This document shows, one piece after another, positions 3,726 through 31,111 of a stretch of DNA of 64,000 nucleotides (positions are counted from its first letter, which is position 1; every line of letters starts with the position of its first letter). A program made the translations under genes and the position numbers. The notes beneath the pieces were generated by a model, which saw nothing but the letters and a program-made list of their open reading frames with translations, ran no database searches and was not told the DNA's origin. Source of the stretch: Prolixibacteraceae bacterium (GTDB lineage: Bacteria; Bacteroidota; Bacteroidia; Bacteroidales; Prolixibacteraceae); contig JAQUIJ010000002.1 in the NCBI GenBank assembly GCA_028683385.1, forward strand, positions 434,001 through 498,000. Reading direction: 5' to 3'.

Positions 3726-3849
3726 CAACCAAGTCTCGTTATTTATTTGAATGCAAGATACATTTATTTGATGACTCTTATTATGTATGTTTTTTGAAAT
3801 AGCGTGCAATTTTCAGGAATGCGTTTAAATCGATTTAGCAACTTGTTTT

Positions 3850-3883
3850 TTTGATTCAAACCGCATCATTTTATGTAATTTTG
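3850..3883 (+). promoter_or_regulatory. Candidate Bacteroidota promoter for mtgA
   Basis: TAATTTTG at 3876-3883 fits the -7 consensus TAnnTTTG, with TTTG 22 bases upstream. Transcription would start near 3890, about 20 bases before the mtgA ATG. Confidence 0.45.
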
Positions 3884-3908
3884 TTCTTTCAAATCTCATC
3901 CTGAAAGA

Positions 3909-4607
3909 ATGAAAAACTCACTTGGTAAAACAATCTTCCGGTTTCTGTGGAAAGCGGCCCTTTGGTTCGTTGGGCTATCTATCTTTTCGGTTGTTGTCTT
4001 TCGGTTTGTACCGGTACCAATAACTCCACTGATGCTGATTCGCTGTGGGGAACAGGCTTTTAGCGATGATCCCATTCGTTTAAAGCACGACTGGGTTTCA
4101 TTGGACGAGATTTCGAAGAATTTGCCTTTGGCAGTCGTTTGCAGCGAGGATCAGAATTTCATGAACCATTCGGGATTTGACATGAAAGCCATTGAGCGCT
4201 CTGTTGACGCTGTCAAGCGGGGTGCCAAAAGGGTTCGGGGCGCCAGTACCATTTCGCAGCAAACCGCAAAAAACGTTTTTCTATGGCCAGGCAGAAGCTG
4301 GATTCGCAAAGGCTTTGAGGTTTATTTTACCGTTTTGATTGAATTCGGTTGGGGCAAGGAACGCATTATGGAAGTTTACCTGAATAGCATCGAAATGGGA
4401 AAAGGAATTTATGGTGCCGAGGCTGCTGCTGAATTTTACTGGCATACTTCTGCTAAGAATCTCTCCCGGACACAGGCTGCCGCCCTTGCAGCTATACTGC
4501 CAAATCCACGAAAATACAGCGCCAATCCGCCGGGACCTTACGTTCAGGACCGAATTGGCTGGATTGTCGATCAAATGGGGCAGTGGGGAGCTTTGAGGTT
4601 TAAATAG
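3909..4607 (+). CDS. mtgA: Monofunctional biosynthetic peptidoglycan transglycosylase
   Basis: 232 residues, the usual length for MtgA. One membrane anchor lies near residues 12-32, followed by a GT51 glycosyltransferase domain. Visible motifs are SEDQNF (catalytic Glu, about residue 80), GASTISQQTAKN (about 110-121), and the later block ERIMEVYLNSIEMG...GIYGAEAAA. It polymerises lipid II into glycan strands on the outer face of the inner membrane and has no transpeptidase domain. It stands alone, diverging from the restriction gene, and is followed by a clear terminator at 4673. The ATG at 3909 sits just downstream of a good promoter box. Confidence 0.94.
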   Translation: MKNSLGKTIFRFLWKAALWFVGLSIFSVVVFRFVPVPITPLMLIRCGEQAFSDDPIRLKHDWVSLDEISKNLPLAVVCSEDQNFMNHSGFDMKAIERSVDAVKRGAKRVRGASTISQQTAKNVFLWPGRSWIRKGFEVYFTVLIEFGWGKERIMEVYLNSIEMGKGIYGAEAAAEFYWHTSAKNLSRTQAAALAAILPNPRKYSANPPGPYVQDRIGWIVDQMGQWGALRFK

Positions 4608-4672
4608 AACAATTTCCCTTTTTAAGCAAATCTTAAGAAACCAAAGCAGTTGGAATCTGTTATACTATTTCG

Positions 4673-7962: not shown

Positions 7963-9828
7963 ATGGCAATTGAGGTAAAAAGAACCTTTGACATTCTTGA
8001 ATTTTGTCTCAGTAAATTTTCCAGAAAAGATGCTTTGGGTGGGAAAAATGGCGGCGATTGGTATGTATATAGTACTGCCGAATATGTCGAGAAATCGCAT
8101 CAGTTTGCAATTGGGTTAATGGCTTTGGGCCTGAAAAAAGGCGATAAAGTTGCTACCGTAACTACCAACCGGCCTGAATGGAACTTTGCCGACATGGGAC
8201 TGGCAATGACAGGAATTGTTCATGTTCCGATTTATCCGACTATTGGAGAAGATGAATACAGTTACATTCTGGAACATGCCGAAATAAAGCTTCTGCTGGT
8301 TGGCGACCGGAAATTGTACGAAAAATTAAGTCCGATTGCCGCGCAATTGCCCGCAATTACACTCATCTATTCATTCGATGAGGTGGAAGGCGTCCCTAAT
8401 TTTGACGAAATTCTGCAATTGGGAAAAGATCATCAGGAGGAATTTGGCGGTCAACTCGAAGAAATCAAAAGAGCTGTTGATCCTGAAGATTTGGCGACTA
8501 TTATTTACACCTCCGGAACTACAGGAGTTCCCAAGGGGGTGATGCTGACACATACCAATTTGGTGTCGAATTTTCTGGCCCATTCAAAGATGCACAATCT
8601 GGGAATAGATCACCGGGTGATTAGCTTCCTGCCGCTTTGCCATGTGTACGAACGCAGCGTGAATTATCATTTTCAGTACAAGGGAATGGGGATTTATTAC
8701 GTTGGAAATCTCGGGCAGATTGTTTCGGCGATCAAAGAAATAAAACCTCACATGTTTAATTCGGTTCCGCGTTTGCTCGAAAGGGTTTACGATGGATTTG
8801 TATCTAAAGGTAAGGAACTGACGGGATTGAAAAAGGTGGTTTATTTTTGGGCGCTCAGCCTGACCCGGCATTTTGAATACAACAAAAAATACAATTTGTT
8901 CCTGAAAATCAGGATTAAACTGGCAGATAAGCTAATCTATTCTAAATGGCGCGAAGCCCTTGGGGGCAACATTGTTTACGTGGTTTCGGGTGGTGCTGCG
9001 CTGCAACCGCGTATTGCGCGCGTTTTGGGAATGGCCGGAATGCTTAATCTGGAAGGGTATGGATTGACAGAAACCTCTCCGGTGATAGCCGTTAATAATC
9101 CGGCAACCCGCGAAATGAAAATTGGTACGGTTGGCGCTATATTGGAAAATGTGGAAGTGAAATTCGCCGACGACGGTGAAATCCTTGTGAAAGGTCCCAG
9201 TGTGATGAAAGGCTATTACAAAGCTCCGGAATTAACTGCCGAAGTTATTGATGAGGAAGGCTGGTTTCATACCGGCGATATTGGTATTTTGGAAGACGAT
9301 AAATTCCTGAAAATTACCGATCGCAAAAAGGAAATGTTCAAGCTTTCAGGCGGAAAGTATATTGCTCCGCAGATGATCGAGAACAAGATGAAAGCTTCGT
9401 TTTTTATTGAACAGGTGATGGTGATCGGTGCAGGTGAAAAGTTTGCCAGCGCCTTGATTTCGCCAAATTTCATGTATCTGCACGATTGGTGCAGCCAGCG
9501 AAAAATACACTTTCAGAACAACGAACAACTGATACAGAAGCCGGAAGTACTCGCTCAGTTTCAACGCGAAGTAGTTGCGATTAATAAAACCCTTGGCGAA
9601 CATGAGGAAATTAAGCGTTTCCGCTTGGTATATGATGAATGGACACCACAAGGCGGTGAGTTATCTCCAACCTTAAAGCTTAAAAGAAACTATGTCTCGG
9701 CGAAATACAAATCGATTATCGATGAGATTTATTCGGTACAGAAAATACAACCTGGAGGACGATTCCGTTTGCCAAAAATTAACCTGAACTTTGATATTAA
9801 TGAGTTTATCAAGCGGCTGAAATTGTAA
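7963..9828 (+). CDS. Long-chain acyl-CoA synthetase (AMP-binding enzyme)
   Basis: 621 residues, the usual length for FadD15-type long-chain fatty acid CoA ligases. The adenylation motifs are intact: phosphate-binding loop IIYTSGTTGVPKG near residue 185, YGLTETSP near 365, GWFHTGDIG near 428, and DRKKEMFKLSGGKYIAP near 450. It activates fatty acids as acyl-adenylates and then acyl-CoA, for beta-oxidation or lipid synthesis. It follows ccsA by 44 bases on the same strand, so the two could share a transcript, although their functions are not obviously linked. The start ATG at 7963 gives MAIEVKRTFDIL. Confidence 0.93.
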   Translation: MAIEVKRTFDILEFCLSKFSRKDALGGKNGGDWYVYSTAEYVEKSHQFAIGLMALGLKKGDKVATVTTNRPEWNFADMGLAMTGIVHVPIYPTIGEDEYSYILEHAEIKLLLVGDRKLYEKLSPIAAQLPAITLIYSFDEVEGVPNFDEILQLGKDHQEEFGGQLEEIKRAVDPEDLATIIYTSGTTGVPKGVMLTHTNLVSNFLAHSKMHNLGIDHRVISFLPLCHVYERSVNYHFQYKGMGIYYVGNLGQIVSAIKEIKPHMFNSVPRLLERVYDGFVSKGKELTGLKKVVYFWALSLTRHFEYNKKYNLFLKIRIKLADKLIYSKWREALGGNIVYVVSGGAALQPRIARVLGMAGMLNLEGYGLTETSPVIAVNNPATREMKIGTVGAILENVEVKFADDGEILVKGPSVMKGYYKAPELTAEVIDEEGWFHTGDIGILEDDKFLKITDRKKEMFKLSGGKYIAPQMIENKMKASFFIEQVMVIGAGEKFASALISPNFMYLHDWCSQRKIHFQNNEQLIQKPEVLAQFQREVVAINKTLGEHEEIKRFRLVYDEWTPQGGELSPTLKLKRNYVSAKYKSIIDEIYSVQKIQPGGRFRLPKINLNFDINEFIKRLKL

Positions 9829-16778: not shown

Positions 16779-18662
16779 ATGAGTAAAATTAATGTGCGTT
16801 TGAGGCTGACAACGTTCGCGATAGCTGCGTTTTTTCTGGGCTTAGCCTCCTGTGGCAATCGGTCAGAGGGCGGAAAAGCGGTTCCCGATTCAAAATCTTC
16901 GGTTGAGGCTCCTGAAGAAGTGAATCAGGATGACGATTCACATGCCGTTGTTGCGGTGCTGGTTTCTCCTGAAAATCCGCGACCCGGACAAATGTTTCGC
17001 GTCATGGTCACTGGTGGAAAAGACATCAGGAAAGCGGATGTCAAGGTGAGCAGTCCTTCCGGAGAACTCAAATCGGAGAAAAGCAAAAATGGAGATGGTT
17101 TGCCATACTGGCAGATTGCTGAATTTAAAGCCGGATCGGAAGGTAAGTATCATGTTTCTGTTGATGGAAATAGCGCCGCCAGTTTGGATTTCCAGGTAAC
17201 TGCAAAACCATCGCAGTCATCGTCAAATATGGTGTGGAATACCAGGCAAGGTTGGAATGGCAAAACAGAAGCGCTCTATTCGGCCTGGATAAATGCTTTG
17301 TTTCAGGATTCGAATGAAAGTGCATCGTGGAAAGCTTTGAACGAAGCGACCGAGAATAAGGAAAATAACTTTTTACACAATTATCTGTCGTTGGGAGAGG
17401 ATGATGCTTCGGGGAAAAATAAGGTGCTAATGACGCCAGATTGTGCCGATAACCCTTTTTATCTGCGGGCTTATTTTTCATGGAAACTTGGGCTGCCTTT
17501 TGGCTATCATGAATGTGATCGTGGTTACCTGGGTAAAGCTCCCCATACCGGACGCTGGATTACCAATGAGACTATTATCTCTAAAACGAATCCGACACAG
17601 AAGTTCAATACTTTTGCCCGAATGATTATGAATGGCGTTCATTCGGGAACTGCCCGTACTGCTTTTGCCGACGAAAGTTCCGACTATTATCCCGTTCCGC
17701 TTACTCACGCAGCATTACGGCCGGGAGTTGTATTTGCCGATCCGTATGGTCATACATTAATTCTTGTACGGACCATTCCTCAAACCAGCGACAGTCCGGG
17801 AGTACTTCTTGCAGTTGATGCGCAACCTGACAAAACAGTCGCAATTAAGCGGTTTTGGAAAGGTAATTTTCTATTCAATACCAACGGAAAAGAGGTCATT
17901 GGGGAGCCCGGATTTAAAGCCTTTCGCCCGATTGCTGCTAATAATGGGAAATTAAGGCTTTTGAAGTCGAATGAGATCAATGCAAATTCTGAATTAGTTC
18001 CCTTTTCACTTCAGCAAAAGGGAATGGAAAGCGCTAAATTTTATCACTCCATGGAACGGGTTATCAATCCCAAGCCGATGGATCCGGAAATGGCATTGCT
18101 TGATTTGATCAATGCACTGAATGAGCAGTTGAATGTTCGGGTTAACTCGGTTGGAAATGGCGAAGAATACATGAAATCACATCCTGGTACAGTTGTTCCG
18201 ATGCCGGGCAGTACTTCAGGAGTATTTCAGGCAGGTGGACAATGGGAAGATTTCTCGACGCCAAACCGCGATCTTCGTTTGTTGATTGCAATGGATGCGG
18301 TTCAGGATTTTCCGAATAAGATTGTTCGTTCACCTGAAGACTATAAATTGCCCATGCTTCAATCTCCTGAAAAAGCAAAGAAGAATCTGGAAGAGCTTTT
18401 AGCGAAAAAAACGAATGAACTTTCAATTACCTATATCCGCTCGAATGGCAGCAAGCAAACGCTGACGATTGCAGAAATCCTGAAACGAAAAGATGCTTTT
18501 GAAATGGCATATAACCCCAATGACGGTCCCGAAATTCGTTGGGGTGCGCCCGAAAAAAGCGAAGAACGTTCAACCTGCAAACGCCACGTGCCGGGCAATC
18601 AACTGGCAACTATGAATAAAGTTCGTGTGTGGTTTCAGAAACGATTGCATCCGCCGACTTAA
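16779..18662 (+). CDS. Large lipoprotein with possible papain-like cysteine-hydrolase core
   Basis: 627 residues with a lipoprotein signal ending in LASC (Cys25), so it is probably anchored in the envelope. A negatively charged linker is followed by an Ig-like stretch (about 55-140, VLVSPENPRPGQMFRV). The central part has TPDCADNPFYLRAYFSWKLG with Cys222, and later DPYGHTLILV with His325. This Cys...His order and spacing resembles NlpC/P60 or transglutaminase-like folds, but I cannot confirm catalysis. The remaining ~250 residues are unassigned. It is flanked by an imperfect AT-rich repeat upstream and a palindromic repeat downstream, and has no obvious operon partner. Confidence 0.7.
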   Translation: MSKINVRLRLTTFAIAAFFLGLASCGNRSEGGKAVPDSKSSVEAPEEVNQDDDSHAVVAVLVSPENPRPGQMFRVMVTGGKDIRKADVKVSSPSGELKSEKSKNGDGLPYWQIAEFKAGSEGKYHVSVDGNSAASLDFQVTAKPSQSSSNMVWNTRQGWNGKTEALYSAWINALFQDSNESASWKALNEATENKENNFLHNYLSLGEDDASGKNKVLMTPDCADNPFYLRAYFSWKLGLPFGYHECDRGYLGKAPHTGRWITNETIISKTNPTQKFNTFARMIMNGVHSGTARTAFADESSDYYPVPLTHAALRPGVVFADPYGHTLILVRTIPQTSDSPGVLLAVDAQPDKTVAIKRFWKGNFLFNTNGKEVIGEPGFKAFRPIAANNGKLRLLKSNEINANSELVPFSLQQKGMESAKFYHSMERVINPKPMDPEMALLDLINALNEQLNVRVNSVGNGEEYMKSHPGTVVPMPGSTSGVFQAGGQWEDFSTPNRDLRLLIAMDAVQDFPNKIVRSPEDYKLPMLQSPEKAKKNLEELLAKKTNELSITYIRSNGSKQTLTIAEILKRKDAFEMAYNPNDGPEIRWGAPEKSEERSTCKRHVPGNQLATMNKVRVWFQKRLHPPT

Positions 18663-19777: not shown

Positions 19778-20554
19778 ATGAGTAAATCGTGTATTCTCTT
19801 CTGCAATTGCGGTGCGGGTGTAATTCCTTCGGAAAAATCGCAACAAATTAAATCCAGTCTTGAAACTCTTTGCGCTGACGTTTATCAGCTCGATGATTTT
19901 TGTGGAATTGTTTTGGGGCGAAAGGATTTTATTCAGGCCATCGAACAGAAATACAAACGAAAGGTAATGATAGCCTGTTATCCACGTGCTATCAAAAGTC
20001 TTTTGGCTCAAAATAATTTGGAACTTTCAGGCTTGGAAGTTTTAAATTTCAGGGAATTGTCGGCTGGTGAAATAGATTCAAAACTCAAGAGTAATTTAGG
20101 TTTCGTTGAGGGAACCGCGAGAGAAGATACGATCATTAGTGGTCTGGATGTTCCGGCATGGTACCCGGTAGTCGATCAGCCGTTGTGCATCGATTGTGGA
20201 AAGTGTTTCAAATTCTGTTTGTTTGGGGTTTATACGTTTGGCGATAAAAAGCTGAAAGTAGTCAATCCGCTGGCCTGTAAAAATAATTGCCCGGCTTGCG
20301 GTCGGAATTGCCCGACTTCAGCCATCATTTTCCCTCGACTGAAAGAAGGTGGTGTCTTAGCAGGTGCAGAACCCGGAGCGGAGCCTCAGTTTAAAGGAAT
20401 TTCGGCTGATAGTAATATGATCGCGACACTAAATCAACGCTCGGCACTGCGACGGAATATTTTCAGGACTGGATTGATTGAACAGGCCGAAGCTGAGCGA
20501 AATAAGGCGCTAGACGAATTAAAAAATACTATTTTCCCTGATAAGAAGCTCTGA
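19778..20554 (+). CDS. HdrA-like N-domain plus 2[4Fe-4S] ferredoxin protein
   Basis: 258 residues from the ATG at 19778; an earlier in-frame ATG at 19682 would add an unlikely hydrophobic leader. The N-terminal part (CILFCNCGAGVIPSEK...) resembles the first domain of heterodisulfide-reductase subunit A. At residues ~136-180 are two iron-sulfur sites: CIDCGKCFKFC (CxxCxxCxxxC) and CKNNCPACGRNCP (CxxxCxxCxxxCP). It probably carries electrons. It lies 121 bases upstream of a radical SAM gene, and supplying electrons to that enzyme is a reasonable inference. First gene of the probable terpenoid cluster. Confidence 0.78.
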   Translation: MSKSCILFCNCGAGVIPSEKSQQIKSSLETLCADVYQLDDFCGIVLGRKDFIQAIEQKYKRKVMIACYPRAIKSLLAQNNLELSGLEVLNFRELSAGEIDSKLKSNLGFVEGTAREDTIISGLDVPAWYPVVDQPLCIDCGKCFKFCLFGVYTFGDKKLKVVNPLACKNNCPACGRNCPTSAIIFPRLKEGGVLAGAEPGAEPQFKGISADSNMIATLNQRSALRRNIFRTGLIEQAEAERNKALDELKNTIFPDKKL

Positions 20555-20670
20555 AAGAGCTTAATTTGAATAACCGCGGGCGTAGCCCGTGGAAAACGAC
20601 CGATTGAATAACAGAACCCTGAAAGGGTTCAATATAAAAACAGACGCAATATATTGCGTCTCTACAAAAT
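20540..20670. repeat. Cluster of three interspersed palindromic repeats
   Basis: Three units lie in tandem between the ferredoxin and radical SAM genes. They are agctctgaaagagctt, which overlaps the end of the ferredoxin gene, with ccgcgggcgtagcccgtgg; aaccctgaaagggtt; and agacgcaatatattgcgtct. All are common Bacteroidota intergenic palindromes. The gap carries no separate gene. Confidence 0.75.
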
Positions 20671-20675
20671 ATAGA

Positions 20676-21857
20676 ATGGGTTTATTAAAAAACATACTGA
20701 TCCGGAGCGACCGTAAATGCCTGTACAAGTTCGTGGTGAATATGGGTATTAAAGGATCCATGTCGTTTGCCCGATTTCAGAAACGGCAAAAGAAAGGCGA
20801 ATTTTTTCCAGCCTTTAACTTTATTTCGGTTACCGATGATTGCAACCTGAATTGCCAGGGATGCTGGGTGATGGGAAAGGAGAAAAACAGTCGTTTGAAG
20901 CCTGAACAAGTTGACCGGATTATCGATGATACAAAAAAAATGGGCTCGTATTTCTTCGGAATTCTGGGCGGCGAACCATTGCTTTACAAACCGCTTCCTG
21001 AAATATTTAAAAAACATTCAGACTGCTACTTTCAGTTGTTTACCAACGGGACGCTTCTTACTCCTGAAGTGGCGGAAACATTGCGCCAGTGTGCTAATGT
21101 GACTCCGCTCATCAGTTTTGAAGGTGACGAGCAAGTTGCCGACGTGCGTCGCGGTGGAAAAGATGTGTTTCAATCGGCGAATGTTGGCATTGATAATTGC
21201 GTTAAAGCCGGTTTGATTACCGGAGTGGCCATCAGCGTTTGCAAGTCAAACCTCGAAATGGCTGTTTCGCCCCAATTTATCCAATCGTTGATCGACAAAG
21301 GAGTAGCTTATTTGTGGTATTACATTTACCGCCCGGTTGGACATCAACCCAACTACGAACTGGCACTCAGCTCGGATGAAATCCGGCAACTTCGTCAGCA
21401 CATGGTCGATGCCCGAATGAAATACAGCATCGCCATTATCGATACCTATTGGGACGCTGATGGAAACGGCATGTGTCCGGCTGCCGAAGGACTGAGCCAC
21501 CACATCAATGCTTCAGGATATGTTGAACCATGCCCGGTTATTCAGTTTGCCTCCGATCACGTCGACGACAAACCCTTGGATCGATTGTACGCTGAATCCG
21601 GATTTTTAAGCGATTTCCGAACTCAGATTCAACAAAAGACAAAAGGTTGCGTTGTGATGGAAGATCCGCGCTGGCTGGCCGAATTTGTGAAAAAGCATGA
21701 TGCAAAAAACACGTCAGGAAGAAAGGGCGAACCCGAACGATTACGAATGGCTCCTGTAACCAATAGTCATGGTTCGTGCGAAGTCATTCCGGAGAAAAGC
21801 TGGATTTATCGCTTTGCCAAACGAAGGGCGTTTTTTGGGTTGGGAGCTTATGGATAA
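20676..21857 (+). CDS. Radical SAM protein of the terpenoid cluster
   Basis: 393 residues from the ATG at 20676; the frame opens at a GTG at 20589 inside a repeat, which I reject. The radical SAM motif is CNLNCQGCW with Cys56, Cys60 and Cys63 (CxxxCxxC), followed by GILGGEPLLY (SAM-binding GGEP). The C-terminal half has cysteines in GMCPAAEG and VEPCPVIQF that could hold an auxiliary cluster (SPASM-like), but the pattern is incomplete. It would generate a 5'-deoxyadenosyl radical; the substrate is unknown. Neighbours are a ferredoxin and a DUF116-prenyl synthase, so a terpenoid substrate or precursor is plausible, by rough analogy with HpnH of hopanoid synthesis. It is not clearly HpnH itself. 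Confidence 0.85.
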   Translation: MGLLKNILIRSDRKCLYKFVVNMGIKGSMSFARFQKRQKKGEFFPAFNFISVTDDCNLNCQGCWVMGKEKNSRLKPEQVDRIIDDTKKMGSYFFGILGGEPLLYKPLPEIFKKHSDCYFQLFTNGTLLTPEVAETLRQCANVTPLISFEGDEQVADVRRGGKDVFQSANVGIDNCVKAGLITGVAISVCKSNLEMAVSPQFIQSLIDKGVAYLWYYIYRPVGHQPNYELALSSDEIRQLRQHMVDARMKYSIAIIDTYWDADGNGMCPAAEGLSHHINASGYVEPCPVIQFASDHVDDKPLDRLYAESGFLSDFRTQIQQKTKGCVVMEDPRWLAEFVKKHDAKNTSGRKGEPERLRMAPVTNSHGSCEVIPEKSWIYRFAKRRAFFGLGAYG

Positions 21858-21880
21858 AGAAGTTCCGAGCGAACTAGAGT

Positions 21881-21925
21881 TTGGAGTGCTTAGAGTACTT
21901 CAGAGCTAACTCTAGGCACTCCGAA
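21881..21925. repeat. Imperfect inverted repeat before the DUF116-prenyl synthase gene
   Basis: Arms ttggagtgcttagagt (21881-21896) and actctaggcactccgaa (21909-21925) can pair with about two mismatches around a 12-base loop. It looks like another interspersed intergenic repeat. Confidence 0.55.
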
Positions 21926-21950
21926 TTTTAGGCACTTCGAACTTTAATTT

Positions 21951-23522
21951 ATGAAGGTAAAAGAAAAAATATTGGCAGTTCCTGAGGAGGCTTTAACGCG
22001 GAATCGGTTGAGGAAAGCGGCTCGCGAACGGATCGCTGAAAGGGGAATTTTGCCTCCCGCAAGCTTTGCTTTGATTAGTCAGTTGGCTGACGAAGTGATT
22101 GCACTGACACAAACCGACATCAGTTTTAAGGAATTTACGATGGTGGTTTGCGGAAATGAGATTTGGCGACCAATTGTTGCGGCTACTCCATATAACCGCC
22201 GGCTTTTACTTTTGCCTCAATGCCTGAAAAATAATAGCAACTGCAACGCGGTGATCGACGAACTGGGTTTGATTTGTGCCGGATGCCAAAGTTGCCAGAT
22301 TGATTCCATTTTGCAAAAGGCCGAATCGCTTGGTTATGCTACGCTTGTAGCTGAGGGAACGACAGTCGCCGTTAGTCTGGTTCAGGAAGGAACCATTGAT
22401 GCGGTGATTGGCGTAAGTTGCATGTCGGTACTTCAGAAATCGTTTGAGCCGGTCTCTCGCGCCGCCGTTCCTGTAATTGGCATTCCGCTTTTGTTCGAAG
22501 GTTGCGCCGAAACTGATGTTGACGGGCGTTGGCTGAATGATGAACTGATCGCATTTCAGGAAAATGAACAGTTTCGGAGCATATCGGTTTCAACCTTGAA
22601 GGAAGCTATAGCACACTTTTTTACTGAAGGCACTCTTGTCAAAGCTTTTGGTTCAACCGATGACCGCACCTGTCAATTGGCCATTCAGTCGATGTTAACA
22701 GGTGGCCAGCGGATTCGTCCGTTGTTGACGGCATTGGCTTATTCGGCCTACGCTGCAATTGTTTCTGACGAATTAATGGCTTCGCTTTCGCTGGTGGTTG
22801 AATGTTTCCACAAGGCATCGCTCATTCACGACGATGTGGAAGACAACGACGATTTCCGTTACGACACCGAAACCATTCACAAGCAAAATGGTATCCCGGT
22901 TGCCATTAATACCGGCGATTTTTTGCTTGGAAAAGGCTACGAACTGTTGGGGAAACTTCCACTCGAACCAACCAAAATGGCTGCTTGTTATCAGTTGGTG
23001 GCATCGGGACATGTGGCTTTATCGCTTGGACAAGGAGCCGATTTGCTTGCCAGTTCGCATAAAACCATTCTTCCGATCAATCAACAACTCGAAATTTTTG
23101 AACGGAAAACCGGCTCGGCTATTCAGGTGGCTTTGCTCCTTGGCGCTGTTGCTGCCCATGCTCCTGAATGTGACTTGGCTATTTTGAAAACTTTTTCAAG
23201 TTATTTTGGAATGGCCTACCAGATCAAAGACGATCTGGATGAATTCCTTGAAGCCAACGAACATACCTATCCAGCGGATTATCCTTTGCTGCTTTCAATT
23301 TTGGCTGAAAATCTGGACGAATCTCAACGAATAAACCTTCGGTTTCTTTATACTGAAAACGATCGTTTGCAGATTTCAGCATTGATCCGTGATAATGAAA
23401 TCGATCTGAAAGCTGAAATTTTACTTCAGGAATACACCGATAAAGCTTACCGGGAACTCGACAAAATTGAGAACCTGAAGATGAGGTTGAGTTTATACAC
23501 CGTGCTTGGCAAAATATTCTGA
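21951..23522 (+). CDS. DUF116 - polyprenyl synthetase fusion protein
   Basis: 523 residues. Residues ~60-215 are a DUF116 domain with its cysteine pattern (LPQCLKNNSNC, then CAGCQSCQID), a probable metal or Fe-S site. Residues ~225-523 are a trans-isoprenyl diphosphate synthase: GGQRIRPLLTALAY, first aspartate motif DDVEDND near 294, GQGADLL, and second motif YQIKDDLDEF near 427. Two canonical positions differ: the RRG after the first motif reads FRYD, and the second motif is DDLDE rather than DDxxD. It should still condense IPP with an allylic diphosphate, but chain length cannot be predicted. A fusion of these two domains is unusual. The stop lies ten bases before the next gene. Confidence 0.85.
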   Translation: MKVKEKILAVPEEALTRNRLRKAARERIAERGILPPASFALISQLADEVIALTQTDISFKEFTMVVCGNEIWRPIVAATPYNRRLLLLPQCLKNNSNCNAVIDELGLICAGCQSCQIDSILQKAESLGYATLVAEGTTVAVSLVQEGTIDAVIGVSCMSVLQKSFEPVSRAAVPVIGIPLLFEGCAETDVDGRWLNDELIAFQENEQFRSISVSTLKEAIAHFFTEGTLVKAFGSTDDRTCQLAIQSMLTGGQRIRPLLTALAYSAYAAIVSDELMASLSLVVECFHKASLIHDDVEDNDDFRYDTETIHKQNGIPVAINTGDFLLGKGYELLGKLPLEPTKMAACYQLVASGHVALSLGQGADLLASSHKTILPINQQLEIFERKTGSAIQVALLLGAVAAHAPECDLAILKTFSSYFGMAYQIKDDLDEFLEANEHTYPADYPLLLSILAENLDESQRINLRFLYTENDRLQISALIRDNEIDLKAEILLQEYTDKAYRELDKIENLKMRLSLYTVLGKIF

Positions 23523-23532
23523 AATTTAGGTC

Positions 23533-24468
23533 GTGACTAATTCTCCAAACGTTCCCTTCTATCGGCAGATGATTGTATTGCTGCGGAATGCGATGAACTT
23601 GCTGGACGAGCAGGGTAGGGAAGAGGTGCTGAAATTTATCATCAGTCAACAAAATTCGGATGGTGGTTTTCGGGATCGTGGCGGACGGTCGGATTTGTAT
23701 TATTCGCTGTTTGGCGGGTTGATGCTCGGAGCATGGGGCAAAGGGCATGGGGCAAAGGGCAATGGGTCAGAAGACCGGAGTCAGAAGACGGGAGTCTGGA
23801 GACTGGATACCGGAGCGGCGTTCCCTGAGCTTGTCGAAGGGACAATCCTGAAACTAAAACAATTTATTGCAGGTCAGTCAAATACTGATGTTCCAGGTTT
23901 TATCGAAAAATGTTGTTTGATACTACTTCAAAAGGAATTAAAGGCCGGAAGTAACTCTCGACTCAAGGCATTGATTTCATTAGGAAAATCGTTTTGGAAA
24001 GAACGTGGTTCAATCAATATTTCATACCGAAGTTTTGTGTTGTTCCTGACATTGGAGGCTGTTTTGCCCTTTCGAAAAATTCTGAAAGTTGGCGCAAAAA
24101 AAATGTTAGCGAGAACAATGATTGATCAACATTCGCCTTGCTCCGAAGTGGCAGCAAAAGTTTTCCTGCAAAAAATGATGAATCAGGATGGATCAGGAGA
24201 TCAGGAATTGCTGAAGTCGTTTACTTGCGAAACTGGCGGATTCAAGGCTTTTGCACATCTCAATAATGCCGATATGTTGTCAACCGCGGTGGCCTTGTTT
24301 GCACTCAATTATTCCGGCTGCGATTTGCGATTGCTGAAGCCTGTCTGCCTCGATTTCATTGGACAAAACTTCTCGGATGGAGCTTTCCTTTCCGGCGATG
24401 GCGACCCAACTGCCGATGTGGAATATACATTTTACGGTTTGCTGGCGCTGGGAGTTTTGGCAGTGTAG
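23533..24468 (+). CDS. Prenyltransferase / terpene-cyclase-like alpha-barrel protein
   Basis: 311 residues starting at a GTG ten bases after the upstream stop, so translation is probably coupled. It has the repeats of the squalene-cyclase/protein-prenyltransferase barrel: QQNSDGGFRDRGGRSDLYYS near residue 38, CETGGFKAFAHLNNADML near 235 and PTADVEYTFYGLLALG at the end. It is half the length of a two-barrel cyclase and no DxDD is visible. Residues ~67-105 are out of character (GHGAKGNGSEDRSQKTG), because an interspersed DNA repeat block lies in frame here (23731-23845). It may be an accessory or degenerate barrel, or may pair with the cyclase at 26043. Confidence 0.72.
   Translation: MTNSPNVPFYRQMIVLLRNAMNLLDEQGREEVLKFIISQQNSDGGFRDRGGRSDLYYSLFGGLMLGAWGKGHGAKGNGSEDRSQKTGVWRLDTGAAFPELVEGTILKLKQFIAGQSNTDVPGFIEKCCLILLQKELKAGSNSRLKALISLGKSFWKERGSINISYRSFVLFLTLEAVLPFRKILKVGAKKMLARTMIDQHSPCSEVAAKVFLQKMMNQDGSGDQELLKSFTCETGGFKAFAHLNNADMLSTAVALFALNYSGCDLRLLKPVCLDFIGQNFSDGAFLSGDGDPTADVEYTFYGLLALGVLAV
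23731..23845 (+). repeat. In-frame repeat block inside the barrel protein gene
   Basis: Two exact tandem 14-mers gcatggggcaaagg (23731-23744, 23745-23758) lead into a degenerate ggagtc/agac stretch. The block ends in ttccctgagcttgtcgaagg (23821-23840), with the hairpin tccct/aggga. The last element is a well-known intergenic palindrome. The whole block adds no stop codon and keeps the frame. Confidence 0.7.
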
Positions 24469-24621
24469 ATGTTTCTGCAAGGGCCAGTTGTTCAAAATAA
24501 ATTGTCTTATCTACCAATAATTCTAATAATTATATTCTTCTTTTCAATTTATCAAATAAAATGTTATAATTTAGGTTGTTGTTAACTGTATGAAAAATCC
24601 ACAATCTAAAAACCTACACAA

Positions 24622-25908
24622 ATGTTTAAAAAAGGTAATTTAACTATATTGTTTGTTTTGATATTCTTCTTTTTAAAAGCTCAAGATTATCAGATTATTT
24701 TTTCTGGAACTGGATCATCCACTAATGTTGATAGCGTAATGGTGGAAAATATTACGCGAAGTAAAAGAATCACTGTTAAGGGGAATGAAATTCTTCATTT
24801 GACTTCAATAAGTACTGATGTCATTCCTATACAGGAAAATACTGCAAGAACCTTAAATATTTTTCCAAATCCTATGGTTGAAGCTAGCACGATAGTTTTT
24901 CAAGCTATAGCTTCAGGAGTATCGCAAATTGAAGTATTTGATTGTAGTGGAAAAATCATTTCGTATAAACAGGATATATTAGAAACAGGATTCCATACAT
25001 TCAAGATATCAGGTTTAAGCAAGGGTGTATATTCAATACGGGTAAATTCTCTGGCTTATTCGTATTCAGGTAAATTGGTTAGTGTTTGTACGAATAAATC
25101 TCATTGTGAAATCTCGGAGATAGGGTATCAGCCTTTGCCTTCTTCAAGGGTCCCCAATCTAAAAAATGCTACATCGGAAAAACTAATGAAATATACCGAT
25201 GGAGATAGGTTGATAATGACAGGTATGTCAGGTAAATTCAGTACGATCATAACCGATATTCCGACTCAAAATAAAACGATAACTTTTAATTTTATGCCCT
25301 GTGCCGACGGGGATGGAAATAACTATCCAGTTGTACAAATTGGCACACAGATATGGATGGGCGAAAATCTACGAACAACCAAATTAAATGATGGGACTGA
25401 TATTCCTAATATTACAAAAGATTCGGATTGGGGAGCTTTAACAATACCTGGGTATTGCTGGGCAAATAATGATGAAGTAAATAAGAGTCCTTATGGCGGT
25501 TTGTATAATTGGGTTGCGGTGAATACTGGGAAACTTGCTCCTAAGGGCTGGCATGTTCCAACAGATAACGAATGGTATGATTTAATCAGAAATCTGGGAG
25601 GTTCATCTTTGATGGTATGTATGCTTCAGGAAACTGGGAATAAACATCGAGATACAGACGCATTCAATTCTTCTAATGCTACAAATGAAACAGGGTTTTC
25701 TATGGTGCCAGGAGGTATGAGAATTGGAGGTTCGGCTGGTACAGGAGTATTTTCTGGTTTTAAGAATTACGGCTATTATTGGTCATCTACATTTGATGGA
25801 ACATACCCTCAAGGTGAAGCCGCTCATAGCAGATTTATTATGAATGACTTTGTGAATTTGGGAATGTTGTTGAAGGATGGATTGTCTATACGATGTATAA
25901 AAGATTAA
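24622..25908 (+). CDS. Secreted FISUMP-domain protein with internal sorting-like module
   Basis: 428 residues with a signal peptide (hydrophobic to about residue 20). Residues ~78-155 look like a T9SS type A sorting domain (LNIFPNPMVEAS...FHTFKISGLSKGVYSIRV), but in the middle of the protein rather than at the end. Residues ~230-428 are the Fibrobacter succinogenes major paralogous domain: VQIGTQIWMGENLRTTKLND, PKGWHVPTDNEW, YYWSST and the final LSIRCIKD. Function unknown; probably a surface or secreted lipoprotein-like domain. It sits between two terpene genes but has 150 bp of AT-rich sequence upstream, so it is probably transcribed separately. Confidence 0.8.
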   Translation: MFKKGNLTILFVLIFFFLKAQDYQIIFSGTGSSTNVDSVMVENITRSKRITVKGNEILHLTSISTDVIPIQENTARTLNIFPNPMVEASTIVFQAIASGVSQIEVFDCSGKIISYKQDILETGFHTFKISGLSKGVYSIRVNSLAYSYSGKLVSVCTNKSHCEISEIGYQPLPSSRVPNLKNATSEKLMKYTDGDRLIMTGMSGKFSTIITDIPTQNKTITFNFMPCADGDGNNYPVVQIGTQIWMGENLRTTKLNDGTDIPNITKDSDWGALTIPGYCWANNDEVNKSPYGGLYNWVAVNTGKLAPKGWHVPTDNEWYDLIRNLGGSSLMVCMLQETGNKHRDTDAFNSSNATNETGFSMVPGGMRIGGSAGTGVFSGFKNYGYYWSSTFDGTYPQGEAAHSRFIMNDFVNLGMLLKDGLSIRCIKD

Positions 25909-26042
25909 GGGATTTATATCTTGTGCATTAGATAAATTTTAGAGAAATGTTAGTTTTCAAAGGCTTATTTCATTTTACCTGACAACATAGTCTAAAACAA
26001 TATGATATCTTTTGTACTTTGCACTCCACACTGTATTTTTCT

Positions 26043-27842
26043 ATGGAAACATCATTTCAATCTCAATTCTCCGAACTTAGCGCTATTCTTCTCCAAAAAC
26101 GCAATGCTTCTGGCTATTGGGAAGGTCGGCTTTCGTCGAGTGCATTGGGTGTGGCAGTGGCCATCACGGCATTGCATTTTTACGATGCTATTCTAAATAA
26201 ATCCGAGATTTTATCAGGAATAGCATGGCTGCACTCAAACATCAACAATGAAGGTGGATTTGGCGATTCTCCTGAAAGTGTGAGTAACGTGAGTACCAGT
26301 TTGCTTTGTTATTCTGCGGTAAAAGTTTGTAGTACGAACGATCAGAACCGATCTCTGCTCCTGAAAATTGGTGATTATCTGCGTTTGCAAAATATTGATG
26401 TCAATTCGGAACAACTTATTCCGGCAATACTTGAATTCTATAAAACCGACCGTACTTTTTCGGTTCCAATCCTGACGATGTGCGCATTGTGCGATGTTCC
26501 CGGTAAGGAAGCGTTTGATTCGATTCCTCAATTGCCTTTTGAACTTTCGTTGTTACCACGGTCATTTTATCGGATGCTTAATCTGAGTGTGGTGAGTTAT
26601 GCCATTCCGGCTTTGATTGCTGTTGGTATTGCCATTTTTAGATTTAAGAAAAGAAAAAATCCGTTGATGCGATGGATTCGTGAAGCCTCGGTCAAAAAGT
26701 CACTTGCTTTACTGCGAAAGATTCAGCCGCACAGTGGAGGATATCTGGAAGCCATTCCATTGACGGCATTTGTATGTTTGTGCCTGGTTGAGTCGGGTTA
26801 TCGTAATCTGGAAGTAGTGCACGATGGAATGAACTTTCTGAAACGGACTCAACGGGAAGACGGAAGCTGGCCAATTGACATTGATCTCTCAACCTGGATT
26901 ACCACACTGGCTGTAAAATCGCTAAGGAGTAATTTGGATAACGTTTTAACGTCAGCAGAAAAGCAACAAATCACCAATCATTTGCTGACGATTCAGAATA
27001 AGCAAATCCATCCGTTTAATGGAACTCAATCCGGAGGCTGGGGTTGGACTTCGCATGCGGGTTCGGTGCCCGATGGCGATGACACTCCCGGAACAATCCT
27101 GGCATTATTGGCGTTGAATCAAGATGGTCCGCTAGTTGTTCAGGATGCCGTTTTTGCGGGTGTTGGCTGGCTGCGTCGATTGCAGAACAGCGATGGTGGT
27201 TTCCCTACTTTTTCGCGTGGTTGGGGCAAGTTGCCGTTCGATCAGAGTTGTTCTGATTTAACCGGGCATGTGATTCTGGCGATGGCCAAAACAGCTCACT
27301 TATTTGGCAATTCGCTCAGCCAGAAGCAACATTCGGAAATTAAAAAATCATTTGTCCGATCGGTTATTTATCTTGAGAAGCATCAGGACAAATCCGGATT
27401 TTGGCTGCCTTTGTGGTTCGGAAATCAGAATACACCCGGTCATACCAATCCGGTTTATGGTACTGCCCGTGTTACTTCTTACCTGAATGAAACTTTGAAT
27501 ACTAAATTTGGTAATGAATACGAAATAATCCTGAAACGAATGATTAATCGTGGTTGCCAATATCTCGTTTCAGTACAAAATCAGGATGGAAGCTGGGGTG
27601 GAGCAAAAGCTATTTCAGGAAGTATTGAAGAAACGGCTCTCGCAGTTACGGCACTTGTCCAGAATGGCTTTCGGGAGGAGTGTGCTTCAGGAATGAACTG
27701 GTTGTATGAAAAAACAAAATCCGACGGGATTGTTGCCTCACCCATCGGATTGTACTTCGCTTCTTTGTGGTATGATGAAGAAATGTATTCTATAACAGCG
27801 TATTTGGAATGTTTGTCGGCAAGTATGGAGACTATTTTGTGA
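26043..27842 (+). CDS. Class II terpene cyclase (squalene-hopene cyclase-like)
   Basis: 599 residues from the ATG at 26043; the frame opens at a TTG eight codons earlier. The protein has the two-barrel layout of squalene-hopene and class II diterpene cyclases. The acid motif DxDD is present as VPDGDDTPGTI (Asp344-Asp347). QW-type repeats are seen at QREDGSWPIDIDLSTW near 278, QNSDGGF near 382 and QNQDGSWGG near 515. A late NPVYGTARVTSYL corresponds to the NYIYGT region of hopene cyclases. It would cyclise a polyprenyl substrate by protonation, probably at the membrane, perhaps made by the DUF116-fused prenyl synthase. It ends with an 11-base convergent overlap with the next operon. Confidence 0.85.
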   Translation: METSFQSQFSELSAILLQKRNASGYWEGRLSSSALGVAVAITALHFYDAILNKSEILSGIAWLHSNINNEGGFGDSPESVSNVSTSLLCYSAVKVCSTNDQNRSLLLKIGDYLRLQNIDVNSEQLIPAILEFYKTDRTFSVPILTMCALCDVPGKEAFDSIPQLPFELSLLPRSFYRMLNLSVVSYAIPALIAVGIAIFRFKKRKNPLMRWIREASVKKSLALLRKIQPHSGGYLEAIPLTAFVCLCLVESGYRNLEVVHDGMNFLKRTQREDGSWPIDIDLSTWITTLAVKSLRSNLDNVLTSAEKQQITNHLLTIQNKQIHPFNGTQSGGWGWTSHAGSVPDGDDTPGTILALLALNQDGPLVVQDAVFAGVGWLRRLQNSDGGFPTFSRGWGKLPFDQSCSDLTGHVILAMAKTAHLFGNSLSQKQHSEIKKSFVRSVIYLEKHQDKSGFWLPLWFGNQNTPGHTNPVYGTARVTSYLNETLNTKFGNEYEIILKRMINRGCQYLVSVQNQDGSWGGAKAISGSIEETALAVTALVQNGFREECASGMNWLYEKTKSDGIVASPIGLYFASLWYDEEMYSITAYLECLSASMETIL

Positions 27843-28260
27843 CCACAACTGCCGGACTCACTTTGATTTCCATCAAATATCCTTTGCAAACTCCTTTAAC
27901 AGTAACCGGATTACCAGTCTGGAGCGCCTCAATAACAGATGGATTGGCTGCCGACCAACTGCTATCGAGTTGACAACTGATTCCTGCCATTTCATCTTCC
28001 AATACCAACAGGTTAGTGCCGTTTGGAAGCTTATTTTTGGCTACCAGTTTGCCACTTATTTCAAGCACTTTTTCGCTGTATTTGGTAGTCGCCGTTGCTT
28101 CCTCTTTCTGAAATTCGTCCATCAACGTTGAAGCTTCCGTTTTAAATTCTGCGTCCAGTTTATTCACATCAGCGTGAGGCTTAAAAAACATTTTCAGGCC
28201 AATACCTGCTCCGATAACGATTACAGTCAAAACAAGAATGATTGCGTATTTGATTTTCAT
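27832..28260 (-). CDS. Membrane-anchored OB-fold (tRNA_anti-like) protein
   Basis: 142 residues: an N-terminal membrane helix (about 4-24), a helical charged stretch, then a small OB-fold domain (VLEISGKLVAKNKL ... VTVKGVCKGYLMEIKV) resembling the tRNA_anti-like family. Proteins of this kind occur with YceI in Bacteroidota, but their function is unknown. It is the last gene of the five-gene operon, 11 bases after yceI, and overlaps the end of the terpene cyclase by 11 bases. Confidence 0.7.
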   Translation of the reverse strand: MKIKYAIILVLTVIVIGAGIGLKMFFKPHADVNKLDAEFKTEASTLMDEFQKEEATATTKYSEKVLEISGKLVAKNKLPNGTNLLVLEDEMAGISCQLDSSWSAANPSVIEALQTGNPVTVKGVCKGYLMEIKVSPAVVVTK

Positions 28261-28271
28261 GAGCTTGTATT

Positions 28272-28823
28272 TTATTGACCGTAAGGTAAATAACTGGCTT
28301 TTACTGTGATTTCCATTTCCTTGCCAATTTTGTCGCGAACCAGTGATGGTATAGCAATGCCGTAATCTTCAGGAGTTACTTTAAACTTCGAAGTTGCTAC
28401 CAATTTGCCACCTTCCATTCCGATTGTTCCGGGAACTGTGATTGTTTTGTCAACACCATGCACGTTTAAAACGCCAGTAATTTTGATGTTGGCAACTGGG
28501 GCGATAAGCATTTCTTTTTTGAATCCTTCAATGGTTCCTTTGAATTTTGCCTTAGGGAATTTGGTGCTTTCCATATAATTCTCGTTGAAATGCTCTTCCA
28601 TCAAGGCGCGTTTGAAATGAAATGTAGTCATTAGTGCCTGGAAAACAATTTCTCCGTTTGACGAATCAAGGATTGTTACGGCCTCGTTGCTCTCGCCAAG
28701 GATGTCTTCCATTGGAGTTGATGAGTAGAATGAGATGTAGGCGTTTTTGGCAATAAATTTGCCTTGGCTAAATGCACCAAATGATGCTCCAAGCACGATC
28801 AGCACTAAAAAAATCTTTTTCAT
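28272..28823 (-). CDS. YceI family periplasmic protein
   Basis: 183 residues with a signal peptide (to about residue 20, ...GAFSQG). The YceI lipocalin-like barrel is recognisable from PKAKFKGTIEGF, TGVLNVHGVDKTITVPGTI and FKVTPEDYGI. YceI proteins bind isoprenoid lipids such as polyprenyl chains; this is of interest because the terpene cyclase lies next door, but the two are on opposite strands. It lies two bases after the DUF5777 gene. Confidence 0.9.
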   Translation of the reverse strand: MKKIFLVLIVLGASFGAFSQGKFIAKNAYISFYSSTPMEDILGESNEAVTILDSSNGEIVFQALMTTFHFKRALMEEHFNENYMESTKFPKAKFKGTIEGFKKEMLIAPVANIKITGVLNVHGVDKTITVPGTIGMEGGKLVATSKFKVTPEDYGIAIPSLVRDKIGKEMEITVKASYLPYGQ

Positions 28824-28825
28824 TG

Positions 28826-29722
28826 TTATCTGTCTTTTTGAAATGAAAATACTCTTGAAATATTGAATCCTAAGTGAATTCCTTTGTCGAACCAGTCGTC
28901 GGTTGTTTGAGGAATGAATGAGCCTTCGCGCATACCCAATGAATTGGTCAGCATAATCTGAAATACGTGACCGCCGGTTTCAATATCAACACCTACCGAG
29001 GCTGAATTGTAGTATTTGGTATCCTGGAATTTGTTGTTTGGGTTGTAATTGTAGTAGTACTCAGCGTTCAGCGAAAGTCGTTTTGAAAGTTTATATCGGG
29101 CGCCAAATCCCATGGCATAAACATCATTCATATCAAGTTCTGTTTTAACCAGATTACGGTGAATGAAGGTTGGCGAAAGTTGAAATGAGAATTTGTCATT
29201 AAACTTACGGGCAATCAGCAATTGATGGACAAATGCCAGCCTTGACGAAAAGTAATTGGTTCGTGTCGGATCTTGAAATTTAAGTGTATTCAACTCGACA
29301 GAAGTGAAGTAGCTCAACGAAACAGGCATCCATTTTGCTCCTGAAGATTGACGCAATAAACGGAATTTTGCAAATGAATCATAGGTTTTGTTTAAGCTTC
29401 CACGACCGGCACCAAGCATTAACCAGTCGGTTACTCCATATTCAAGGCTGAAATGAATTTTCGATTGGTCGAGCCCGAATAACCCATATGCGCCATCGTT
29501 GAGAGGTCCAAAGCGGTGCGAGATGCGAAAATCCAGTTGCCTTTTCTTCATCTGTTCAATGGAGTGTCCGTTTATTATACGGCTGGCCTTGAAAGTCGCA
29601 GTTGCATAATCGATTGTTGGTTTTGTTTCGGCATTCAGTAAAGCATCCAGATCCTGACTGTATGTATTTCCTGAGAAAATCAAAAGAAATAATGCGATAA
29701 AAATATATTGTATTCGTTTCAT
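28826..29722 (-). CDS. DUF5777-like outer-membrane beta-barrel protein
   Basis: 298 residues with a signal peptide (to about residue 22, ...GNTYSQ). Alternating beta strands with many aromatic residues and the segment ISHRFGPLNDGAYGLFGLD, followed by a C-terminal strand ending in Phe-rich SRVFSF, suggest an outer-membrane barrel of the DUF5777 family. This family usually occurs with YceI and haem lipoproteins, as here. Possible porin for the adjacent redox lipoproteins; unproven. Confidence 0.78.
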   Translation of the reverse strand: MKRIQYIFIALFLLIFSGNTYSQDLDALLNAETKPTIDYATATFKASRIINGHSIEQMKKRQLDFRISHRFGPLNDGAYGLFGLDQSKIHFSLEYGVTDWLMLGAGRGSLNKTYDSFAKFRLLRQSSGAKWMPVSLSYFTSVELNTLKFQDPTRTNYFSSRLAFVHQLLIARKFNDKFSFQLSPTFIHRNLVKTELDMNDVYAMGFGARYKLSKRLSLNAEYYYNYNPNNKFQDTKYYNSASVGVDIETGGHVFQIMLTNSLGMREGSFIPQTTDDWFDKGIHLGFNISRVFSFQKDR

Positions 29723-29733
29723 TCGTCAGTGAT

Positions 29734-30117
29734 TTAGTTGTTTAATTTACCGTTGTCAATCCATTTCTGCAGTTTGCTGATTTCGCAATCGGTTAGCTTG
29801 CCACCACCTTGAGGCATTGCCTGGAATCCGGGCGTATGATTTATAGTTCCCATTAATTTCCCATTGTTTGCTGAGATAAGAACATCGGCATAGTTTTCAA
29901 GTTTTATTCCTCCACCTGAGTTCGCCGCTTTTGAATTTGAATGGCAAGACAAACATGAAGCTTGCAGAATTGGCTTAACTGTAGTGGCAAAGGTGACGTT
30001 TGACAGATCACATGAGGAGGAAACTTGTGGATATAGTTTTTCTTCCGTGTCGTAGTAACAGCCGGAAACAAAAGCAATCAACAGAATAAGGCTTATTTTT
30101 GTTATTTTATTCATCAT
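29734..30117 (-). CDS. Small c-type haem lipoprotein
   Basis: 127 residues with a lipobox FVSGC (Cys20). A single haem site CLSCH follows a VKPILQASC lead, and a late Met (GFQAMPQGG) could be the second iron ligand. The layout matches the third domain of the upstream 328-residue protein. It lies seven bases after that gene and 11 bases before the barrel gene. It would receive haem through CcsBA. Confidence 0.82.
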   Translation of the reverse strand: MMNKITKISLILLIAFVSGCYYDTEEKLYPQVSSSCDLSNVTFATTVKPILQASCLSCHSNSKAANSGGGIKLENYADVLISANNGKLMGTINHTPGFQAMPQGGGKLTDCEISKLQKWIDNGKLNN

Positions 30118-30124
30118 GCTGAGT

Positions 30125-31111
30125 TTAATTATATCCTTGATTAATCCATAATTCTACTTGTCTGACATCGCAGGTTGATAACGCATAATCCGGTGGCATA
30201 GCTTTATATCCTGATTTTCTTTTTAGGGCTCCAAGTAGTTTTCCGCTTTTTGCAACCGTTTGAACGTCGCTGGCTGTTAAAAGCTTTATGCCTCCTGAAG
30301 GGTTATTTGCTCCATGGCATGATACACAATCCAAGTCAATAATTGATTTAATATGACTTGCGTAATTGATTGCCCCAGTTGTGTCGCAAGGTGATGCACA
30401 CTCTTCATTTAGCCCTCCTCTTTTTATCCAGCTATAAATTGTGTCGATGGCTGTTTTGCTTAATGGAGAGTATGGTGCAGGAGGCATGAAATTATCAGAA
30501 GTTTGTTTTGCTATAATTGAATTGTATAATGGGCTTGATCCTGGGTTTCCCGGTTTGATTCGTTCCAAGGTTTTCGCATAACTGCTGAAATCAACTCCGT
30601 CCTTGTGTGTTGTTGCATTGTGACAACCTGAAACTGCACAACTACTCATTAAAATGGGTTGGATATCCCGATCGTAACATGCCCAAAGTGTTCCGGACTT
30701 GGTAGTCACTGCTGATCCTGTTGATCCACAAGTTGTTTCTTTAGCTCCTTGTTCGATCCATAAACGGATAGTTGTTCGTTTGTCGATTGGAAGTGCATTG
30801 TTAGGTGGCATTAACTGGAAAGTACTTGTAATGGCCTGATAGGCTTTGCTTTTGTCAGCATTCCCGGCAGTAATTGCTTTCATAATACCAGAGTAATCAG
30901 TGAAGTTATATCCGTGTCCACCTCCACTACTATGGCATCCTGTTGTTCCACAACTATTCTGAAATATTGGTAGTACTTCAGTTTGAAAACAAACTTCTGG
31001 AAATTGATCCGCCGGGATGCCATCATGTTTGCAAGAACTGACCAGAAATAGCATGAATCCACCACCGATCGTAAAAAACAATTTTAAGAATCCAATTCTA
31101 TTATCTTTCAT
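30125..31111 (-). CDS. Three-domain haem lipoprotein with CxxxxCH motifs
   Basis: 328 residues with a lipobox LVSSC (Cys27). Three similar domains each start with a cysteine haem motif and end with a Met-Pro pair: CGTTGCH...LMPP, CAVSGCH...FMPP, CVSCH...AMPP. The first two motifs have four residues between the cysteines (CxxxxCH), which is rare; the third is ordinary CxxCH. The repeated domains suggest internal duplication. First gene of the five-gene operon; probably an electron carrier on the periplasmic or outer-membrane face. Confidence 0.82.
   Translation of the reverse strand: MKDNRIGFLKLFFTIGGGFMLFLVSSCKHDGIPADQFPEVCFQTEVLPIFQNSCGTTGCHSSGGGHGYNFTDYSGIMKAITAGNADKSKAYQAITSTFQLMPPNNALPIDKRTTIRLWIEQGAKETTCGSTGSAVTTKSGTLWACYDRDIQPILMSSCAVSGCHNATTHKDGVDFSSYAKTLERIKPGNPGSSPLYNSIIAKQTSDNFMPPAPYSPLSKTAIDTIYSWIKRGGLNEECASPCDTTGAINYASHIKSIIDLDCVSCHGANNPSGGIKLLTASDVQTVAKSGKLLGALKRKSGYKAMPPDYALSTCDVRQVELWINQGYN

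Follow-up and report, generated by a model that had tools for sequence, protein, structure and literature searches.

A 64,000-nucleotide stretch of a Prolixibacteraceae genome (assembly GCA_028683385.1, contig JAQUIJ010000002.1, positions 434,001 to 498,000; hereafter, the window) carries a five-gene operon on its forward (+) strand, at 19778–27842. It encodes a ferredoxin-like protein (19778–20554), a radical S-adenosylmethionine (SAM) enzyme (20676–21857), a fusion of DUF116 with a polyprenyl diphosphate synthase (21951–23522), a single (alpha/alpha)6 toroid protein (23533–24468) and a class II cyclase of the squalene/hopene cyclase superfamily (26019–27842). These are the genes named in the initial annotation, and all five are present with that strand and those coordinates. 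Their co-function is well supported, and we consider it probable that they form a single squalene-free pathway to a cyclised polyprenoid, in which low-potential electrons take the place of oxygen. The cluster is more than a chance arrangement, since other genera and a second phylum show the same order, and its genes co-occur genome-wide. The nearest named matches of the window are mostly Prolixibacteraceae.

The initial annotation had made its reading hinge on co-occurrence in related genomes and on a shared gene order in other Bacteroidota, and both were found. Of 199 relatives, 77 carry the fusion (E-value no higher than 1e-45): 74 belong to the same family, and G135, G142 and G177 to other families of the order. 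The cyclase was present in 76 relatives, and both proteins together in 75. The surrounding regions were retrieved from 40 of the 77 fusion genomes, and ferredoxin, radical SAM, fusion, toroid and cyclase followed one another in the window’s order in 33 of these 40 loci. Among 18 additional loci of the window’s genus, all five genes were found in 11, five loci are cut, and L042 and L046 contain the radical SAM, fusion, toroid and cyclase genes with no adjacent ferredoxin across 4.5 and 8.4 kb upstream (the counts of 33 and 11 were read manually from the locus listing). Contig edges end five of the 40 loci (L097, L098, L104, L113 and L114). Other departures include an additional open reading frame (ORF) between ferredoxin and radical SAM in L103, a fusion split in two in L110, and the 3.3-kb contig of L107 (G135), where the radical SAM gene was not seen in the 1.4 kb upstream. 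In genome G022 the cyclase lies 1.6 kb short of a contig end and no fusion was matched, while G002 has the fusion and no cyclase match. In L115 (G088:C14:45500-64977), ferredoxin and fusion are adjacent, and only a cyclase-like remnant of 40 residues (8926–9045, 16.3 bits) was found; neither a radical SAM nor a cyclase match was retrieved from that genome. The locus may be misassembled, may have lost genes or may use the ferredoxin/fusion pair for another purpose.

The same association was observed in the phylum of Kiritimatiella, which we take to be Verrucomicrobiota. With E-value limits of 1e-45 for the fusion, 1e-40 for the cyclase and 1e-50 for the radical SAM enzyme, 288 genomes of this phylum yielded 52 with the fusion, 47 with a radical SAM orthologue and 52 with the cyclase. 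The fusion is present in every one of the 47 radical SAM genomes, the cyclase in 50 of the 52 fusion genomes, and 46 genomes contain all three (Fisher p of 2e-45 or smaller across the 288 genomes, uncorrected for kinship). The exceptions are five fusion genomes without a radical SAM match, two without a cyclase match, and two genomes with a cyclase match but no fusion; in both phyla, some exceptions may be assembly gaps. Regions were retrieved from 40 of the 52 fusion genomes, and the five genes lie together in 15 of these loci, 14 of them in the window’s order and one (L179) with the radical SAM gene first. In G681, G684 and G727, the fusion, radical SAM and cyclase genes are located on three separate contigs each. 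That these genomes have kept the genes after their separation strongly supports a single shared function.

A phylogeny of 60 fusion proteins, unrooted, with several long branches and excluding L215 and L216, placed the Bacteroidota in two positions: a clade of 22 rows including the window, and L108 and L109, which fall apart from it among the Kiritimatiella-phylum rows. The starred branches of this tree require two changes. L108 (G142) and L109 (G036) carry a divergent version of the operon, likely a second acquisition judging from their separate grouping. Since L109 belongs to the window’s own family, at least one transfer between the phyla is likely.

Among the alignments of the orthologues, A1 to A5 contain 24–26 selected rows out of 47–57, and A6 contains 57 out of 62. 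The cyclase contains both Pfam domains of the squalene/oxidosqualene (class II) cyclase superfamily, SQHop_cyclase_N at 61.6 bits (cut-off 26.2) and SQHop_cyclase_C at 100.1 bits (cut-off 26.1). The DxDD motif, described as intact in the initial annotation, is so (PDGDD, residues 351–355; DxDD at 27072–27083). The DxDD general acid and its Asp/His partner (D352, D354, D355, D413 and H417) are conserved in at least 95% of 73 rows, as are 122 columns overall, and these residues can be aligned with a Bradyrhizobium squalene-hopene cyclase. W466 and Y480 are further noted positions. The protein scored only 74.8 bits against the squalene-hopene cyclase profile TIGR01507, whose equivalog cut-off is 431.1. 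Its start may be the ATG at 26043 instead of the TTG at 26019.

The radical SAM enzyme matched PF04055 with 59.6 bits (cut-off 29.5), and its CxxxCxxC motif (C85, C89 and C92, numbered on the 422-residue form) is conserved in at least 95% of 76 rows. Three further conserved cysteines in the same rows, C296, C315 and C354, suggest one auxiliary Fe-S cluster. Its best NCBIfam match was NirJ2, at 69.5 bits, and it scored 37.6 bits against the adenosylhopane synthase HpnH (TIGR03470, equivalog cut-off 225.05). Neither is near its cut-off, in keeping with the initial annotation that the enzyme was not clearly HpnH. The worry that the cyclase, radical SAM enzyme and prenyl synthase might match only generic housekeeping families was not borne out, as all three fall below every curated NCBIfam equivalog cut-off. 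The ORF opens with a GTG at 20589, and the start is probably the ATG at 20676, because most same-genus orthologues (393 amino acids) begin there; this comparison excluded contig-edge ORFs, ORFs below 70% of the length, and L113, which is on the same contig as L049.

The fusion contains DUF116 (PF01976, 107.4 bits, cut-off 25; approximately 22101–22538) followed by a trans-polyprenyl diphosphate synthase (PF00348, polyprenyl_synt, 130.8 bits; approximately 22674–23261). Seven DUF116 cysteines (C91, C98, C109, C112, C115, C157 and C185) are conserved in at least 95% of 62 rows. The first Asp-rich motif (DD..D) is present in 62 out of 62 rows, and the second contains DD in 60 of them, the other two being gapped there, followed four residues later by D or E. 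Small residues, A289 and S290, precede the first motif in all 62 rows; of the two other synthases of the same genome, one is alike at this position (A, T) and the second unlike (F, T). Eight other Bacteroidota genomes contain unfused DUF116 genes (L138–L146), whose neighbours vary.

In the ferredoxin-like protein, all Pfam 4Fe-4S matches were sub-threshold (the best, Fer4_6, with 23.4 bits against a cut-off of 25), and matches to HgcB/HdrA-type NCBIfam profiles were likewise below their cut-offs. Its cysteine motifs are nonetheless full: C9, C11, C42 and C67 in the N-terminal part and two 4Fe-4S motifs (C137/140/143/147 and C167/171/174/178), with all twelve cysteines conserved in at least 95% of 70 aligned rows. 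The toroid protein, for which Prenyltrans and SQHop_N Pfam matches were sub-threshold only, has the (alpha/alpha)6 toroid fold of protein prenyltransferase beta subunits. The zinc site of those enzymes consists of Asp, Cys and His, the motif His being one of the ligands. In the toroid, Tyr57 occupies the aligned position of that His, the one ligand compared, in 26 out of 26 aligned rows.

Family membership and linkage suggest that the product would be a cyclised terpenoid on which the radical SAM enzyme acts; we infer its identity and length, the role of DUF116 and the order of the steps as follows. As judged from its motifs, the prenyl synthase half would make a long all-trans polyprenyl diphosphate, of C25 or more. 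The cysteine-rich DUF116 half, probably an Fe-S redox domain, would receive electrons from the operon’s ferredoxin and perform or feed a reductive step on the chain, such as diphosphate loss or the joining of two chains. This step is the weakest of the scheme, and also its most interesting link, because it could take the place of squalene synthase without homology to it. The conserved catalytic residues of the cyclase point to protonation of the terminal isoprene and ring closure. The toroid, judging from its fold, may bind or present the prenyl chain, or act as a second cyclase-like unit. Finally, the radical SAM enzyme, with one auxiliary cluster, would functionalise the product in an HpnH-like manner without being HpnH.

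The neighbourhood of the operon offers the ground for a different reading, in which it makes a membrane redox lipid or a quinone-like lipid-bound cofactor for a periplasmic electron chain, with the cyclase shaping the prenyl part. In many Kiritimatiella-phylum loci, PQQ/NHL-type propellers, a 4Fe-4S ferredoxin whose N-terminus is leader-like and a NapH/NosR-like 4Fe-4S membrane protein adjoin the operon. Propellers of the PQQ type were found in 27 of the 40 fusion loci of that phylum and in none of 20 control stretches from carrier genomes of the same phylum, a contrast biased upward because the propeller model was trained on those 40 fusion loci. Pfam scans of propeller proteins from the Kiritimatiella-phylum fusion loci identified PQQ_2. 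Propellers also occur in 11 of 37 Bacteroidota loci. The NapH/NosR-like protein is near the operon in 13 of the 40 Kiritimatiella-phylum loci, where a 4Fe-4S ferredoxin and a propeller of the NHL type often accompany it. However, no propeller was found in the window, in 18 same-genus loci, or in L076 or L112, and no quinone-ring biosynthesis family appears among the matches listed for the five genes. We regard this redox-lipid reading as unlikely. Examples of the propeller, ferredoxin and NapH/NosR-like module beside the operon are L204 (7642–11891), L189 (12827–17941) and L191 (1559–6958). A CobW-type GTPase and an ArsP permease directly follow the cyclase in L100 (4054–6264) and in several related loci, and several PQQ_2 propellers come next.

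A hopanoid-type pathway, in which a PF00494 enzyme encoded elsewhere supplies squalene, the cyclase cyclises it and the radical SAM enzyme extends the product, would agree with the superfamily of the cyclase. We take PF00494 to cover squalene synthase, HpnC/HpnD and phytoene synthase. No such gene belongs to the five-gene set, as the initial annotation had remarked. Two occur elsewhere in the window’s genome (open frames of 284 and 325 amino acids), so that the window’s own genome may be able to supply squalene; however, G020, in which no fusion or cyclase was detected, contains a counterpart of the second gene. We searched 72 carrier genomes for PF00494, namely 25 of the 77 Bacteroidota fusion genomes (together with five without the fusion) and the 47 of the 52 genomes of the other phylum that have a radical SAM match. 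No match was found in 44 of the 72 carriers: seven of the 25 Bacteroidota (all seven 98–100% complete) and 37 of the 47 from the Kiritimatiella phylum. The same search was positive in 7 of 14 control genomes. Squalene is therefore unlikely as the common substrate, and the pathway as a whole probably does not rely on squalene made by known enzymes. Together with the scores of the cyclase and the radical SAM enzyme, far below the hopene cyclase and HpnH cut-offs, this makes a hopanoid-type pathway very improbable.

Slightly less credible still is a prenylated-peptide system, with the toroid prenylating a peptide or protein that the radical SAM enzyme matures: this enzyme resembles the peptide maturase SkfB (63.7 bits) and the toroid resembles prenyltransferase beta subunits, but Tyr57 replaces the motif His, no conserved small gene was found among the flanking ORFs (those under 80–90 amino acids were not examined), and the DxDD cyclase is left unexplained.

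The five named genes of the initial annotation stand, but a sixth gene on the same strand, between toroid and cyclase (24622–25908), had been left unnamed. It encodes a FISUMP secreted protein (Fib_succ_major with a type IX secretion system tail). Among 60 loci scanned, a FISUMP gene was found at this position only in L049, from the same genus (3411–4649, 53% identity), and in its duplicate L113 on the same contig. Because of this limited recurrence, it is probably an insert outside the pathway. Upstream, a 627-amino-acid protein (16779–18662) present in many loci of the genus had a single Pfam match, with an E-value of 0.059, and no NCBIfam match up to 0.1. Downstream, divergent genes (27832–31111) encode a tRNA_anti-like protein, a YceI protein, a DUF5777 barrel and two c-type cytochrome proteins. 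The YceI neighbour is confined to the genus among the scanned loci; members of this family bind isoprenoids.

A squalene-free pathway would matter beyond this operon. In bacteria, class II cyclases of this superfamily usually receive a hopanoid or squalene annotation, and here is a cyclase family with fixed partners of its own, for which more than half of the tested carrier genomes show no squalene synthase family gene. This bears on hopanoid gene surveys and lipid biomarkers. It also offers a testable function for DUF116 and for an entire radical SAM family, together with the prediction that Bacteroidota and Verrucomicrobiota contain a lipid not seen so far. A bolder proposal, put forward tentatively and with the balance against it, is an anaerobic route of ancient origin that parallels hopanoid synthesis: fusion and ferredoxin would replace squalene synthase non-homologously, Fe-S chemistry would give a reduced or coupled polyprenoid, and cyclase and radical SAM enzyme would turn it into a new class of polycyclic membrane or redox lipid. 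It would span Bacteroidota, Verrucomicrobiota and Planctomycetota, the latter included because of a fusion in Pirellula. If this were true and the hydrocarbon core of the product persisted in sediments, it would constitute a biomarker not recognised so far.

The component enzymes are members of known superfamilies. The sole printed mention of the system retrieved by our literature search is one sentence on that Pirellula fusion, in section 13 of PMC5898192, where Psta_0175 of Pirellula staleyi is given as a DUF116-polyprenyl synthetase fusion, the same domain fusion as in the window. That section predicts DUF116 to be flavodoxin-like, with a CxxCxxC motif and an electron-transfer role; it names the fusion alone, with no word of an operon, cyclase or radical SAM enzyme. 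Protein geranylgeranyltransferase beta subunits share with the toroid both the fold and the motif GGF.DR..D..x.LFG, but not the motif His. In the C35 sesquarterpene pathway of Bacillus (HepS/HepT, YtpB and SqhC), the class II cyclase substrate derives from polyprenyl diphosphate and not from squalene, according to the relevant part of PMC7839719. Polyprenyl diphosphate rather than squalene would also feed the class II cyclase in the route proposed here; by contrast, the operon’s five genes match other families and none is YtpB-like. L281, a Bacillus velezensis protein encoded beside a superoxide dismutase gene, which we take to be SqhC, shares only 21% identity with the cyclase; it carries Arg where the D..H pair has its His, and the FGNQ..NP insert is missing from it. 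Hopanoid biosynthesis (hpnCDE, shc and hpnH) follows a comparable logic, in which a radical SAM enzyme modifies the terpene that a class II DxDD cyclase has cyclised; according to PMC12583986, HpnH attaches a 5'-deoxyadenosyl group to diploptene. It differs from the operon in its squalene synthase genes, of a family without a match in 44 of the 72 carriers tested, and in the families of its cyclase and radical SAM enzyme, and the operon adds a ferredoxin, DUF116 and the toroid.
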